In this document: one piece after another, positions 11,411 to 19,130 of the stretch
How the letters are laid out: every line of letters starts with the position of its first letter
How positions within the stretch are numbered: the stretch's first letter is position 1
From: Desulfomicrobium escambiense DSM 10707
Lineage (GTDB): Bacteria; Desulfobacterota; Desulfovibrionia; Desulfovibrionales; Desulfomicrobiaceae
NCBI RefSeq assembly: GCF_000428825.1
Contig: NZ_AUAR01000001.1
Location: 124,001-188,000, forward strand
Reading direction: 5' to 3'
DNA length: 64,000 nucleotides
Program-made: the position numbers and the translations under genes
The notes under the pieces: generated by a model
What the model was told of the DNA's origin: nothing
What the model saw: the letters and a program-made list of their open reading frames with translations, nothing else
Databases searched by the model: none

Positions 11411-11521
11411 ACGCCGAAGCGGACTCGTCCCGGCCCTGGGGGCGTTTCGTCCTGCTTGACCGGGCCCGGGGGGCGTGACACATCGGGGGCCTTCGGAAAG
11501 GCGGAGCCCCGCGGAGTTGGC

Positions 11522-12202
11522 ATGATGAATACGGCAATCGACCCGTCGCGCCGTCACGAGACGGAACAGACACCGGCCTCGGACCCGCGCCGGGGCAGCA
11601 GCGCCCCTGGCGTGGTGGCCTGCCAGACCTGCGACCTGCTGACGCGGCCTTCGGGCGCGGCCGGCACGACCTCCCTCTGTCCGCGTTGCGGGGCGGTGGT
11701 GCACCGGCAAAAGAGCAACAGCATCGACCGGCCGCTGGCCTTCGCCCTGAGCGGGCTGATCCTTTTCGCCATCGCCCTGACGCACCCCTTCCTGGCCATG
11801 AAGAGCGGCGGATTCGTGCAGGAGACCACGCTGCTGACGGGCATCTTCGAGCTCTGGAAGCAGCACCTCTACGGCCTGGGCGCGCTCGTGCTCCTGACCT
11901 GCGCCCTCATACCCCTGGCCCAGCTCACGGGCCTTCTCTACATCCTTGTCCACCTGCGCCTGAACGCCGCGGCGCCGGGGAGCGTCGCCATTTTCCGGGC
12001 CATCCTGCACGTCAACTCGTGGGCCATGATGGAGGTCTTCGTCATCGGCATCCTGGTGGCCCTGGTCAAGCTCGCCAAGATGGCGACCATCGTGCCGGGG
12101 GCGGCGGTCATGGCCCTGGGCCTGCTGACCGTGGTCACCACGGCCGCCATGGCGACCCTCGACCCTCCGCTCGTCTGGGCGCGGCTGGACCGCCGCCCAT
12201 GA
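11522..12202 (+). CDS. pqiA: Paraquat-inducible protein A (PqiA) domain membrane protein, first half
   Basis: 226 aa. An N-terminal zinc-ribbon-like CxxC pair (ACQTCDLL and CPRCGAVV, about residues 35-65) precedes four hydrophobic helices. Enterobacterial PqiA carries two such domains in one chain of about 417 aa; here the two domains are separate genes (this one and 12199-12831). First gene of the pqi operon, joined by ATGA overlap to the second. PqiABC moves lipids between inner and outer membranes; PqiA is the inner-membrane component. Two consecutive ATG codons (11522, 11525) are possible starts. Confidence 0.85.
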   Translation: MMNTAIDPSRRHETEQTPASDPRRGSSAPGVVACQTCDLLTRPSGAAGTTSLCPRCGAVVHRQKSNSIDRPLAFALSGLILFAIALTHPFLAMKSGGFVQETTLLTGIFELWKQHLYGLGALVLLTCALIPLAQLTGLLYILVHLRLNAAAPGSVAIFRAILHVNSWAMMEVFVIGILVALVKLAKMATIVPGAAVMALGLLTVVTTAAMATLDPPLVWARLDRRP

Positions 12203-12831
12203 CCGGCGGATACACTTCCGCCAGGCAGGCCGGGTTGATCGCCTGCCACGACTGCGGGCTCCTGGTGCCCGCCGGGACCGTCGGCCCCGGCCATGGGCGC
12301 TGCCCGCGCTGCGGCGCGGCCCTGCACGCCCGCAAGCCGAACAGCATCGCCCGCGCCTGGGCCTTTCTGCTGGCCGCAGCCATCATGTACGTGCCGGCCA
12401 ATATCCTGCCCATGACCATCACCACGGCCCTCGGCTCGGCCCAGTCCGACACGATCATGAGCGGCGTCATCTATTTCATCCACAGCGGCTCGTGGGAGAT
12501 CGCGGCCGTCATCTTCGTCGCCAGTATCTTCGTGCCCATGGCCAAGCTGGTCATCCTGATTTTTCTGCTGACAAGCGTCCAGCTGCGCTGCCGCTGGCGG
12601 CCCAGGGACCGCACCGTGTTGTACCGCATGACGGAGCTGGTGGGCCGGTGGTCCATGGTCGACGTGTACGTGGTCACCATCCTGGTCGCCCTGGTCAAGC
12701 TCGGCGCCGTGGCCAACATCGAGGCCGGCCCGGCGGCCGTGTTCTTCGCCACGGTGGTGGTGCTGACCATGCTGGCCGCCGAGAGTTTCGACCCCCGCCT
12801 CATCTGGGATGTCATCGAGGAGGATTCATGA
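12199..12831 (+). CDS. pqiA: PqiA domain membrane protein, second half
   Basis: 210 aa, paralogous to the preceding gene: CxxC pairs ACHDCGLLV and CPRCGAAL, then KPNSIARAWAFLLAAAIMYVP and three more helices. Overlaps the previous stop and the next start by ATGA, so the four pqi genes are translationally coupled. Together with the previous gene it equals one E. coli PqiA. Confidence 0.87.
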   Translation: MTGGYTSARQAGLIACHDCGLLVPAGTVGPGHGRCPRCGAALHARKPNSIARAWAFLLAAAIMYVPANILPMTITTALGSAQSDTIMSGVIYFIHSGSWEIAAVIFVASIFVPMAKLVILIFLLTSVQLRCRWRPRDRTVLYRMTELVGRWSMVDVYVVTILVALVKLGAVANIEAGPAAVFFATVVVLTMLAAESFDPRLIWDVIEEDS

Positions 12832-14459
12832 CTGATAGCGAAAGCCCCGCGGAGCTCGCGTCTCCCGCCCAAATCCGGAAAAGCCGCAGCCTCTCGCTGG
12901 TCTGGATCGTGCCGCTGGTGGCCCTCGTCGTCGGCGGGTGGCTCGTCTTCAAGGCGCTGAGCGAGAAGGGCCCCGTCATCACCATCATGTTCTCGTCGGC
13001 CGAAGGGCTCGAGGCCGGCAAGACCAAGATCAAGTACAAGGACGTGGTCATCGGCCAGGTCGAGACCATCCGCCTGGGCGACGACCTGAAGCGGGTCGTG
13101 GTCACGGCCGAACTGGCCAAGGGGTACGACCGGTACCTGAACGACAGGACACGCTTCTGGGTGGAGCGCGCCCAGATCCGCGGCGGCACGGCCTCGGGCC
13201 TGACCACACTGTTTTCAGGCGCGTACATCGGCGTCGATCCGGCCCTCGAAGGGCAGCCAACCGTGAGCTTCGTCGGCCTCGAAGTGCAGCCCGTCGTGAC
13301 CACGGGCCTGCCCGGCAAGCATTTCTGGCTCAAAGCCAGGAAACTCGGCTCCCTCAAGGTCGGCGTCCCGGTCTACTACCGCCAGATTCAGGTCGGCCAG
13401 GTCGTCAGCTTCGGCTTCGCCCCCGACGGCCGGACCGTCGACGTCCAGGTCTTCATCGAAGCCCCCCACGACGCCAAGGTCACCCAGAACACGCGCTTCT
13501 GGAACTCGAGCGGCCTGGACGTGTCCCTTTCGGCCCAGGGGCTGAAGATCGATACGGAGTCCCTCATCACCATCATCTCCGGAGGCCTGGCCTTCGATGT
13601 GCCCGACGGCATGGAGCCTGGCGGGGAAGCGGCGGAACACGCGACGTTTCAGCTCTATCCCACCCGCGAGAGCATCCAGGAGAAAACCTACACCCTGCGC
13701 AGGACCTGGCTGGTCTATTTCGACCAGTCGGTGCGGGGCCTGAGCATCGGCGCCCCGGTGGAGATCTACGGCATCAAGATCGGCGAGGTGTCCGGTATCG
13801 ACCTGATCTACGACGAGAAGCGCAGGGAACTGCGCGTGCCCGTCCTGCTTTCCGTGGAGCCGGAGCGGATCCAGAACGTGCTGAAGGCCATTCCCGAACA
13901 GGAGGCAGGGGAGAGCAATCCCCTGCTCAGATGGTTCGTGGAGGACCGCAATCTGCGGGCCCAGCTCAAGACGGGCAACCTCCTCACGGGGCAGCTCCTG
14001 GTCGATCTCGGGTTCTATCCCGACGAGCCCAAGGCCGTCCTGGCCCATGAGAACGGACTCCCGGTCATCCCCAGCATGGGCGGCTCCATCGAGCAGATTC
14101 AGGAGAGCATCGCCAGGATCACGCGCAGCCTGGAGAAGGTGCCCTTTGAAAAGATCGGACGGGATTTCGATCTGCTGCTCAAGGATGCGACAACGACCGT
14201 CAGGGACGCCGGGGTGTTCGCGCGGCGCCTGAACGGGGAGACCGCCCCGGCGCTGCAGGCCAGTCTCGGGGCCCTGCAGACGACGTTGCAGGAGGTGCAG
14301 GGCACCATCGGCAAGGACTCGCCCCTGAACTACAACCTGAAGAAGTCTCTCGAAGAGCTGTCCCTGACCCTGCGCTCCCTGCGCGAACTGACCACCGCCA
14401 TCGAGAGCCGGCCGCAGTCGCTCCTGTTCGGCAAAGGAGAGAAGGAAGATGAAAAGTAG
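12828..14459 (+). CDS. pqiB: PqiB, MCE-domain lipid transport tunnel protein
   Basis: 543 aa, same size class as E. coli PqiB (546). One N-terminal membrane anchor (about 22-43, LSLVWIVPLVALVVGGWLVF), three successive MCE/MlaD domains (about 47-150, 160-270, 285-400; repeated G-KIGEV/G-V/I-GQV strands) and a C-terminal helical segment (about 430-535). In E. coli three-MCE subunits stack as hexameric rings and a needle that carries lipids across the periplasm. ATGA overlap with pqiA and 11-nt overlap with pqiC. Confidence 0.92.
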   Translation: MTDSESPAELASPAQIRKSRSLSLVWIVPLVALVVGGWLVFKALSEKGPVITIMFSSAEGLEAGKTKIKYKDVVIGQVETIRLGDDLKRVVVTAELAKGYDRYLNDRTRFWVERAQIRGGTASGLTTLFSGAYIGVDPALEGQPTVSFVGLEVQPVVTTGLPGKHFWLKARKLGSLKVGVPVYYRQIQVGQVVSFGFAPDGRTVDVQVFIEAPHDAKVTQNTRFWNSSGLDVSLSAQGLKIDTESLITIISGGLAFDVPDGMEPGGEAAEHATFQLYPTRESIQEKTYTLRRTWLVYFDQSVRGLSIGAPVEIYGIKIGEVSGIDLIYDEKRRELRVPVLLSVEPERIQNVLKAIPEQEAGESNPLLRWFVEDRNLRAQLKTGNLLTGQLLVDLGFYPDEPKAVLAHENGLPVIPSMGGSIEQIQESIARITRSLEKVPFEKIGRDFDLLLKDATTTVRDAGVFARRLNGETAPALQASLGALQTTLQEVQGTIGKDSPLNYNLKKSLEELSLTLRSLRELTTAIESRPQSLLFGKGEKEDEK

Positions 14460-15048
14460 ACTCACCCGCGCGGCGCTCCTGGGCCTGGCCTGCGCCATGC
14501 TGCTGGCCGGTTGCGCCGGGAAGGCGCCGACCACGTCCTACTACAGCCTGCACGTTCCGCAGGCTTCCGCCCCGGCCCCGGCCGGGGACGCGGTGTCCTT
14601 GAGCGTCGGCCCCGTGACCCTGCCCGACGTCCTCAAGCAGACGCGCATCGCCACGGGCGGGGAGAACGGGCGGTACCGCCTGTCAGAATACCACCGCTGG
14701 GCCGGCGAGGTGGACCGGGACATGGCGCGGGCTGTGGCCGAGCGGCTTTCGATGATTCTCGGGACCGAGAACGTGTCCCTCTTCCCTTGGGACCAACAGG
14801 CCCGGCCACGCTTCCGCGTCCTCGTCGACGTGGTGGCCATGGGCGGCAGCCTCGGCCGCGAGGCGACGCTGTCCGCCCGCTGGACCCTGCTGGACGCGGA
14901 AAGGCAGGGCGAACCCCTGGTGCGGCGCACGGATACGGCCCAGCCCCTGCCGGACGCCGATCACGCCACCTGGGTCGCAGCCCAGCAGCGCAACGTCGAG
15001 AGGCTGGCCGACGACATCGCCGCAGCCATCGCGGCCGCGCGGGACTGA
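14449..15048 (+). CDS. pqiC: PqiC, outer-membrane lipoprotein of the Pqi system
   Basis: 199 aa. Lipoprotein signal with LLAGC at about 18-22, then the ABC-type transport auxiliary domain (formerly DUF330): TTSYYSLHV, LSVGPVTLPDVLKQTRIATG, and a C-terminal helix. It overlaps the pqiB 3' end by 11 nt. In E. coli PqiC sits in the outer membrane and contacts the PqiB needle. Confidence 0.9.
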   Translation: MKSRLTRAALLGLACAMLLAGCAGKAPTTSYYSLHVPQASAPAPAGDAVSLSVGPVTLPDVLKQTRIATGGENGRYRLSEYHRWAGEVDRDMARAVAERLSMILGTENVSLFPWDQQARPRFRVLVDVVAMGGSLGREATLSARWTLLDAERQGEPLVRRTDTAQPLPDADHATWVAAQQRNVERLADDIAAAIAAARD

Positions 15049-15103: not shown

Positions 15104-15424
15104 CTAGAAGTTGAGTATCCTGTCGGCCTTCTGCACCTGTTCGTACAGAAACTTCATGTTCGACATGGTCACGTGTTCGCTCGCATCCACACCGTGGATG
15201 CCCATGCACTTGCCTCAGGCGACGAGCACGCCCTCGCTCAGGGCGAAGAGCTTGGCCTGTTCGGCGATGGGGAAGGTCTGGCTGTCGTCGGCGTAGAGGT
15301 CCACGGCCGGGCCGTTCAGAAACAGGGTCACGTCTTCACCCTCTGTCAGCAGAAAGTTGCCGAACCTGACGGCGTTCCATTTGATCTCCGGGTCCGGGCT
15401 GGACAGGACGAGAAGTATTTGCAT
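15104..15424 (-). CDS. DsrE-family selenoprotein (in-frame UGA read as selenocysteine)
   Basis: 106 aa if UGA at 15217-15215 is read as Sec, from ATG 15424 to TAG 15106-15104. Conventional calling stops at the UGA and gives only 69 aa, lacking the conserved part of the fold. The frame reads ...LSEGVLVA-Sec70-GKCM-GIHG... and continues with DASEHVTMSNMKFLYEQVQKADRILNF, which fits the C-terminal half of DsrE/DsrF-like sulfur-relay proteins, where a redox Cys sits at the Sec position; Sec70 and Cys73 form a UxxC pair. A perfect hairpin with a GGU loop follows the UGA (separate entry). Probably a cytosolic thiol/selenol persulfide or redox protein. It faces pqiC; no Sec machinery genes lie in the window. 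Confidence 0.85.
15183..15201 (-). promoter_or_regulatory. Bacterial SECIS element in the dsrE-like mRNA
   Basis: Starting 13 nt after the UGA, the minus-strand RNA forms a perfect 8-bp stem GCAUCCAC/GUGGAUGC with apical loop GGU. Bacterial SECIS elements lie inside the coding region just 3' of the UGA, with a G in the first loop positions and the loop about 16-37 nt away; here the loop is nt 22-24 after the UGA. The same element encodes Gly-Ile-His-Gly-Val-Asp-Ala in frame. Confidence 0.85.
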
Positions 15425-15571
15425 TTTCGCTCCTTTCGGTAGTCATCCATCGATTTTTTCGATGAATATGCGGCGCCCGGAATCGGTTGACTGTCCGGGT
15501 TCGCCTCCCAACAGGGGGACGCACGCTCGGCCGACGTGACCGGCTTCCTGCCATGCTGCGCGAACCGGGGT

Positions 15572-18189: not shown

Positions 18190-18996
18190 TCAGGGCCGGC
18201 GTCGAACGTCTGGACTCGTGAACGGCATGGCCAGCATCCTGTGCAGGGAGCGGAATTTTCGCTCCCGGAAGATGTTCAGGCCCAGGGGCATGGCTTCGTG
18301 GCCCCTGGCGGGCTGGTCCTGGTAGGTTGCGAAGAGGCGGTCCCACCAGGGGAAGCAGAAGCCGAAGTTGCGGTTCATCTCCCGGCCGTCGGTGGAGTGG
18401 TGGATGCGGTGCATGTCCGGGGTGACCAGGATGCGCCGCAGGATCCTGTCCGCAGTCAGGGGCAGGAAGAGGTTGGCGTGGTTGAACATGGCCGCGCCGT
18501 TCAGGATGACCTCGAAGGCAAATACGGCCGCGGGCGGCGGGGCCAACAGGGCCACCAGGGCGAGCTTGAAGGCCATGGATGCCATGATTTCCACGGGGTG
18601 GAAACGCACCCCCGTCGAGAAGTCGAAGAAGGTGTCGGCGTGGTGCATTCAGTGCACCCGCCACAGGGGCCGCCAGGCGTGGAAGGCCCGGTGCTGGGCG
18701 TACATGGCCAGGTCCAGGATGAGTATGGTCACGGCGATTTCTGCCGCCGGGATCAGGCCTAGGGCGGGGAAGAGGCCCAGGCCCGCCTCACGCATCGTCG
18801 CCGCCAGGGCCATGGGGGGTACGGGGAAGAGGAGCCGGACAAGGAACGTCGACACGGCCACCAACCCGAGGTTGCCGACCCACCGGATCGTTCTCCCCGC
18901 CTCGGGCGCCCTGCGCGGACGCACCGCCTCCAGGGCGGCCAGCACCGCGGCGGTCAGGACGAAGGCGCCGAGCCTGATGACATTCCCGTTATCCAT
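18190..18996 (-). pseudogene. Fatty acid hydroxylase / sterol desaturase family membrane protein, interrupted by in-frame TGA
   Basis: 269 codons with a TGA at 18651-18649. Both sides are in one frame and together make a complete family member: membrane helices, then the His boxes Q-HRAFH, H-[TGA]-MHH, NHANL and HRIHH that bind the di-iron centre. The TGA replaces the residue after the first His of the HxxHH box, often Arg in the family, so a CGA-to-TGA nonsense mutation is the simplest reading. Selenocysteine is possible but no good SECIS hairpin is seen 16-37 nt downstream. ATG 18996 (AGGAGG upstream) is preferred to ATG 19053. The 3' part alone begins with ATG right after the TGA but lacks half the iron ligands. 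Confidence 0.65.
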
Positions 18997-19130
18997 GAAC
19001 CTCCTGCCGTGGGTCTGCGGCGGGGTGCATCCGTCCGCATATCCCGCGATCATCCGACCCTACAAGGTTCGAGCGCATCTTTCCAGGGGCGCTTCGGCGG
19101 CCTAATGAGGTGATTCGCCGGTTTTCTGCC

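Follow-up and report, generated by a model that had tools for sequence, protein, structure and literature searches.

The window, which is the whole 64,000-nucleotide stretch of Desulfomicrobium escambiense DSM 10707 DNA that was analysed, carries a gene predicted, with a probability of roughly 93%, to encode a 106-residue selenoprotein of the DsrE/DsrF fold with selenocysteine (Sec) at residue 70. Encoded on the minus strand, the gene starts at an ATG (15424-15422), runs through 69 codons to an in-frame UGA (15217-15215) and continues for 36 codons to a TAG (15106-15104). Translation of the UGA as Sec gives 106 residues that include the sequence LVA-U-GKCM. The original prediction had placed the ATG, TGA, TAG and this motif exactly to the base and in the correct frame. 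The features of the gene are as follows.

15430..15436 (15436-15430), minus strand, Shine-Dalgarno-like AAAGGAG, read from the sequence
15104..15424, minus strand, predicted gene for a DsrE-like selenoprotein of 106 aa, including Sec70, with a TAG end, from translation and PF02635
15215..15217, minus strand, in-frame UGA, codon 70, inferred Sec; TGA at the same codon in relatives, aligned with a YchN Cys and DsrE Cys78
15206..15208, minus strand, codon of Cys73, presumed to pair with Sec70; not constant across the family, with C in 77, L in 12, S in 7, A in 2 and R in 1 of the 99 distinct TGA rows
15183..15201, minus strand, SECIS-like hairpin of 8 bp with a GGU loop (15193-15191), from the fold, covariation, frozen codons and published bSECIS constraints

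Standard gene calling would reduce this gene to a 69-aa stump that ends just before the catalytic residue. The 36 open codons after the UGA are, we think, unremarkable at the G+C of the window. A search for a sigma-70-type promoter of the gene found none, and the sole terminator-like site was on the opposite strand.

The existence of such proteins is not new. The original prediction had stated that DsrE-like selenoproteins were already reported, and this is correct: published surveys describe two sequences with a UxxC motif from the Sargasso Sea (2005), a predicted protein in Desulfovibrio vulgaris (2006) and the families 'DsrE 1' and 'DsrE 2', again UxxC, in the GOS survey (2008). DsrE-like selenoproteins are also included in reviews of 2022 and 2026, the latter of which, in the sections concerned, grades them 'predicted with high confidence' and describes the functions of a list that includes them as largely uncharacterized. 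The family is thus already predicted and the window gene adds one well-supported copy. What is newly added is that one DsrE clade carries the Sec codon throughout and that this codon outlasts the presumed partner cysteine, a mechanistic clue for the family.

The read-through product matched the PF02635 DsrE domain over residues 2-106 (1.2e-9, 38.8 bits against a cut-off of 22.7). An AlphaFold model calculated from alignment A1 (37 sequences) had a mean pLDDT of 96.2, the five models ranging from 96.2 to 63.4. The closest structures to the model were YchN (Z 16.6, rmsd 2.0, 106 aligned residues) and the archaeal DsrE/DsrF-like protein 3mc3 (Z 16.2), followed among others by TusBCD chain A and DsrE (2hy5_A), both with Z 14.4. 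The top ten rows all had Z of at least 12.9, while the next row fell to 7.1. The product is predicted to adopt a DsrE/DsrF-like fold. When the sequence alone was searched against the PDB, only chance-level matches came back. Profile searches found YchN at 0.0098 with A1 and at 2.1e-13 with the more divergent alignment A3 (33 members), which also reached DsrE at a weak E of 0.17. In the A3 alignment the Sec column fell on the first Cys of LCKTC in YchN and, at that weak E of 0.17, on the Cys of VVCVAAAQRRG in DsrE, which is Cys78 as counted from the printed alignment range. The fold match supports this placement of Sec70 at the Cys78 position. The residue of DsrE aligned with Cys73 is Ala, and the only invariant columns among the 33 divergent members of A3 were R20 and the Sec/Cys position itself.

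The UGA is conserved among relatives. Matches were found in 49 of the 199 genomes of the order, and 46 of these 49 carried TGA where Sec is predicted. Some of these copies are broken (in G010, which has no other copy, and in G193, where the frame is split), and the one in G190 is distant, with 33% identity; G012, from the same genus as the host, G103 and G110 had distant DsrE matches with no stop. Across the phylum, 84 of 395 genomes matched, and 78 genomes with a match lie outside the order, by our count 58 of them with TGA, some in broken or divergent copies. The frame downstream of the UGA was mostly open to residue 106 in relatives. The Sec codon was TGA in the readable rows, or TGC/TGT in Cys forms, with a single CGA in the fragment L146; none of the rows that were read had TAA or TAG there. 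The part of the protein after the UGA, and not only the first 69 residues, was common to the homologues, which had Sec or Cys at the position, as the original prediction implied. The ratio dN/dS was 0.14 before the UGA, 0.18 after it and 0.17 after it when the hairpin codons were left out (48 pairs with at least 78% DNA identity, among 47 genes with at least 60% protein identity).

A tree of 107 rows, with few columns and long branches, comprised 93 Sec and 14 Cys forms; rows shorter than 95 aa or with another stop were left out and L085 was included despite an out-of-frame start. All 72 tree rows in the clade of the window gene have Sec. A Cys form, L112, lies just outside this clade and a Sec row, L115, lies outside L112. 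The Sec/Cys label required six changes on the tree, of which well-supported branches force four. TGA is present in other DsrE clades too, in the contexts UGVCMKSHGL and UKKALKMHGVH. The TGC form that adjoins the all-Sec clade, L112:1501-1818, is in a genome (G342) that retains selB and has a tRNA-Sec hit above the cut-off.

Visibly broken related copies were seen at L075, L076, L085, L099, L113 and L146. Two are from the genus of the host, L075 (the only copy in G010) and L076 (a second copy in G002); in both, the N-terminal part is disrupted and there is an additional TAA. L146:2500-2658 is a decayed gene fragment that has CGA at the Sec codon and a hairpin sequence that is still visible. Among plasmids, the search matched only four haloarchaeal records, DsrE family proteins with at most 39% identity, and no match was found in phages.

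The hairpin that had been claimed 13 nt past the UGA, eight perfect base pairs capped by a GGU loop, is present as described. Its stem is formed by 15201-15194 and 15190-15183, with a folding energy of -11.2 kcal/mol. The 8 bp, the 3-nt loop with G first, the 21 nt from UGA to loop and the stability are all within the limits given for bacterial SECIS elements in the relevant section of PMC13188914. The hairpin alone would be weak evidence; conservation makes the case. The fold of the single sequence was not significant (z -0.58; 48 of 200 shuffles were equally stable). Of the 1568 TGAs in the window, counted on both strands and with that of the gene itself, 99 were followed by a perfect SECIS-like hairpin with an energy of -7.5 kcal/mol or lower and 29 (1.8%) by one as stable as that of the Sec gene. 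An Rfam search returned two irrelevant matches (E 4 and 7.6).

In alignment A2, which comprised 51 of 55 distinct 36-nt TGA rows (L023, the second L084 copy, L086 and L087 were left out), 93.1% of the cells could pair and four of the eight pairs had changed on both sides. The covariation was 0.202 compared with 0.069 in shuffled alignments, none of 500 shuffles was as high, and slid registers gave 0.051 at most. The outermost pair was frequently unpaired (24 of the 51 windows); when all 55 rows were counted, standard pairs occurred in 51 to 55 for the seven inner pairs and in 27 for the outermost. Since the peptide encoded by the hairpin is conserved too, synonymous codon choice was tested in 59 distinct TGA rows with at least 40% identity, of which 57 had the His and 58 the Val. 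His77 was encoded by CAC in all 57, compared with 19 of the 39 other His codons of these genes, and Val79 by GTG in all 58, compared with 163 of the 347 other Val codons. Compensatory changes and frozen synonymous codons thus indicate, at the level of sequence, that the hairpin is under selection. A strict perfect-stem SECIS test was passed by 83 of the 99 distinct TGA rows (distinct 60-nt stretches, some from broken copies) as against 99 of the 1568 window TGAs. Some of the 16 rows that failed have a hairpin in the same place that is shorter or has one mismatch; others, mostly from divergent clades, have none. Two internal controls came from the same genome: selD, with an in-frame TGA, has a 7-bp hairpin with a GGA loop and 20 nt from UGA to loop, and the formate dehydrogenase alpha gene at L149 has an 8-bp hairpin with a GGC loop and 23 nt to the loop. 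The latter was read by a narrow motif that matched L149 and not L150, the other of the two TGA-bearing loci.

The UGA could be a real stop, the DsrE gene being truncated or in decay, or a leaky codon read through without Sec. Chance could provide open codons and one hairpin, and some related copies are indeed broken, as listed above. However, the codon is TGA and never TAA or TAG in the rows read, and purifying selection past the UGA, the covarying hairpin and the frozen synonymous codons all speak against a stop, which is considered highly improbable. A contrast is provided by a second interrupted gene in the window. An in-frame TGA at 18651-18649 splits a fatty acid hydroxylase gene (18193-19053, minus strand) that had a match in 11 of the 16 genomes of the genus, the host included. 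Eight long matches have no stop; G010 has a part with a TAA and G009 a short piece. No SECIS-like hairpin of note followed the hydroxylase TGA (-2.2 kcal/mol). Because the eight relatives are open, this TGA is attributed to a private nonsense change or a sequence error and not to Sec, and it is an example of an ordinary private nonsense change.

The genome has the machinery that Sec insertion would need. The original prediction had been said to depend on selB and selC, and a search found all four genes: selA (621 bits), selB (361 bits), selD (325 bits), which itself contains an in-frame TGA, and the tRNA-Sec gene selC (86 bits), to which ARAGORN assigned the anticodon TCA (UCA). There are also two formate dehydrogenase alpha genes with one TGA each. 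Within the order, selB was above the cut-off in all 46 TGA-bearing genomes and in 134 of the 153 others; no p value is attached to this co-occurrence because the genomes are related. In the phylum outside the order, selB was found in 56 of the 58 genomes with a TGA match and in 15 of the 20 without TGA. G207 (85% complete) and G231 (94%) have TGA-bearing DsrE genes and tRNA-Sec with no selB match at 1e-60, which may reflect an incomplete assembly or a divergent selB.

Recoding of the UGA to Cys or Trp is the other way to read through it, and Cys homologues do exist. The genome, however, has a full Sec system with a tRNA-Sec of anticodon UCA, and the conserved hairpin together with selB in 46 of 46 TGA genomes fits Sec and would be superfluous for plain reassignment; this reading is considered very improbable. 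Both the plain stop and Cys/Trp were rejected on conservation, hairpin selection and Sec machinery. The proposal that the UGA is read as Sec is supported by the conserved UGA, the hairpin under selection and the complete machinery. On the basis of this conservation and machinery, SelB and Sec-tRNA(UCA) would recognise the post-UGA hairpin and Sec would be inserted at residue 70.

The function is less certain than the decoding. In the sulfur relay described in PMC3397948, DsrE-Cys78 binds sulfur and hands it to DsrC. Sec70 would occupy the place of this sulfur-carrying residue, accept a sulfur atom to form a selenyl-sulfide and then pass it on or release it as sulfide; Cys73, where present, may help to resolve the sulfur bound to Sec70. 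That Sec70 handles sulfane sulfur in this way is a tentative prediction, given not quite even odds. The same selenoprotein could instead be a UxxC thiol/selenol oxidoreductase in which Sec70 and Cys73 alternate between the selenol/thiol and the selenylsulfide state, a reading that competes with the carrier step only and is possible, though rather less likely than not. The surveys describe the family by a UxxC motif and count it with the homologues of thiol-based oxidoreductases, and Pyr_redox_2 genes are close by at L084 and L031. The UxxC pair that the original prediction described is indeed found in the window gene and in 77 of the 99 distinct TGA rows, but the second Cys was replaced in the other 22. 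The residue three after Sec was Cys in 77, Leu in 12, Ser in seven, Ala in two and Arg in one, with the TGA retained throughout. That the Sec codon persists even where Leu, Ser, Ala or Arg has taken the place of the partner speaks against a UxxC pair being obligatory and in favour of a sulfur carrier that works with one residue. DsrE also has Ala at the Cys73 position, and the loss of Cys73 with the Sec codon kept favours one-residue chemistry as in DsrE. From these alignments we infer a putative one-residue sulfur carrier with no obligatory UxxC pair.

A more specific proposal, which is rather unlikely as it stands, is that Sec without a partner Cys carries sulfane sulfur (Se-S) at the Cys78 position, unlike the redox role of UxxC, and that some lineages form a mixed Cys/Sec complex with a tandem Cys-type DsrE. 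No report of members lacking the partner Cys, or of a function having been tested, was found in searches of open PMC papers. The Sec codon outlasts the partner Cys and coincides with the residue that carries sulfur in a relay already studied, which raises a testable question, namely whether Sec can serve as a sulfane-sulfur carrier.

The window protein shares with the published DsrE-like selenoproteins, as summarized in the accounts cited above, the PF02635 domain and Sec in UxxC; the published proteins include some from Desulfovibrio. The published tables, in the parts concerned, give UxxC, whereas the family here also has UxxL, UxxS, UxxA and UxxR members. The comparison with the DsrE-like selenoprotein cited as WP_014524487.1 covers its published description (domain and motif). 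DsrE of DsrEFH (2hy5) and TusBCD (2d1p) resemble the window protein in fold and in the alignment of Cys78 with Sec70, and differ in that Sec replaces Cys and that no DsrF- or DsrH-like gene was found by Pfam among the ten neighbouring genes. E. coli YchN (1jx7) is the best solved relative by profile and by fold and has CxxC in place of UxxC; unlike the window protein, to which it is about 20% identical, it has Cys only. According to the pertinent passage of PMC5322559, YedF combines a SirA-like with a DsrE-like domain, the latter with a CGxC motif, whereas the window protein has PF02635 only in its 106 residues and no SirA-like domain.

No conserved operon was found: when 943 flanking ORFs (mechanical ORFs, antisense included) were clustered, no cluster exceeded eight loci. 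Any substrate is a guess because there is no conserved neighbourhood. Tandem DsrE genes with a Cys-type beside a Sec-type occur at L121:2905-3654 and L135:2540-3266, and at L125:2662-3332 such a pair is followed by a Pyr_redox_2 gene. Two divergent tandem DsrE genes with in-frame TGA are followed by PALP and JAB-domain genes at L143:2576-3336. The Pyr_redox_2 domain near L031 is fused to a thioredoxin domain. Such neighbours of sulfur or redox type, seen in a few relatives, would fit sulfur carriage. In the window itself, PqiA, PqiA, MlaD and ABC_trans_aux genes lie in a row at 11456-15048 on the plus strand, convergent with the selenoprotein gene.
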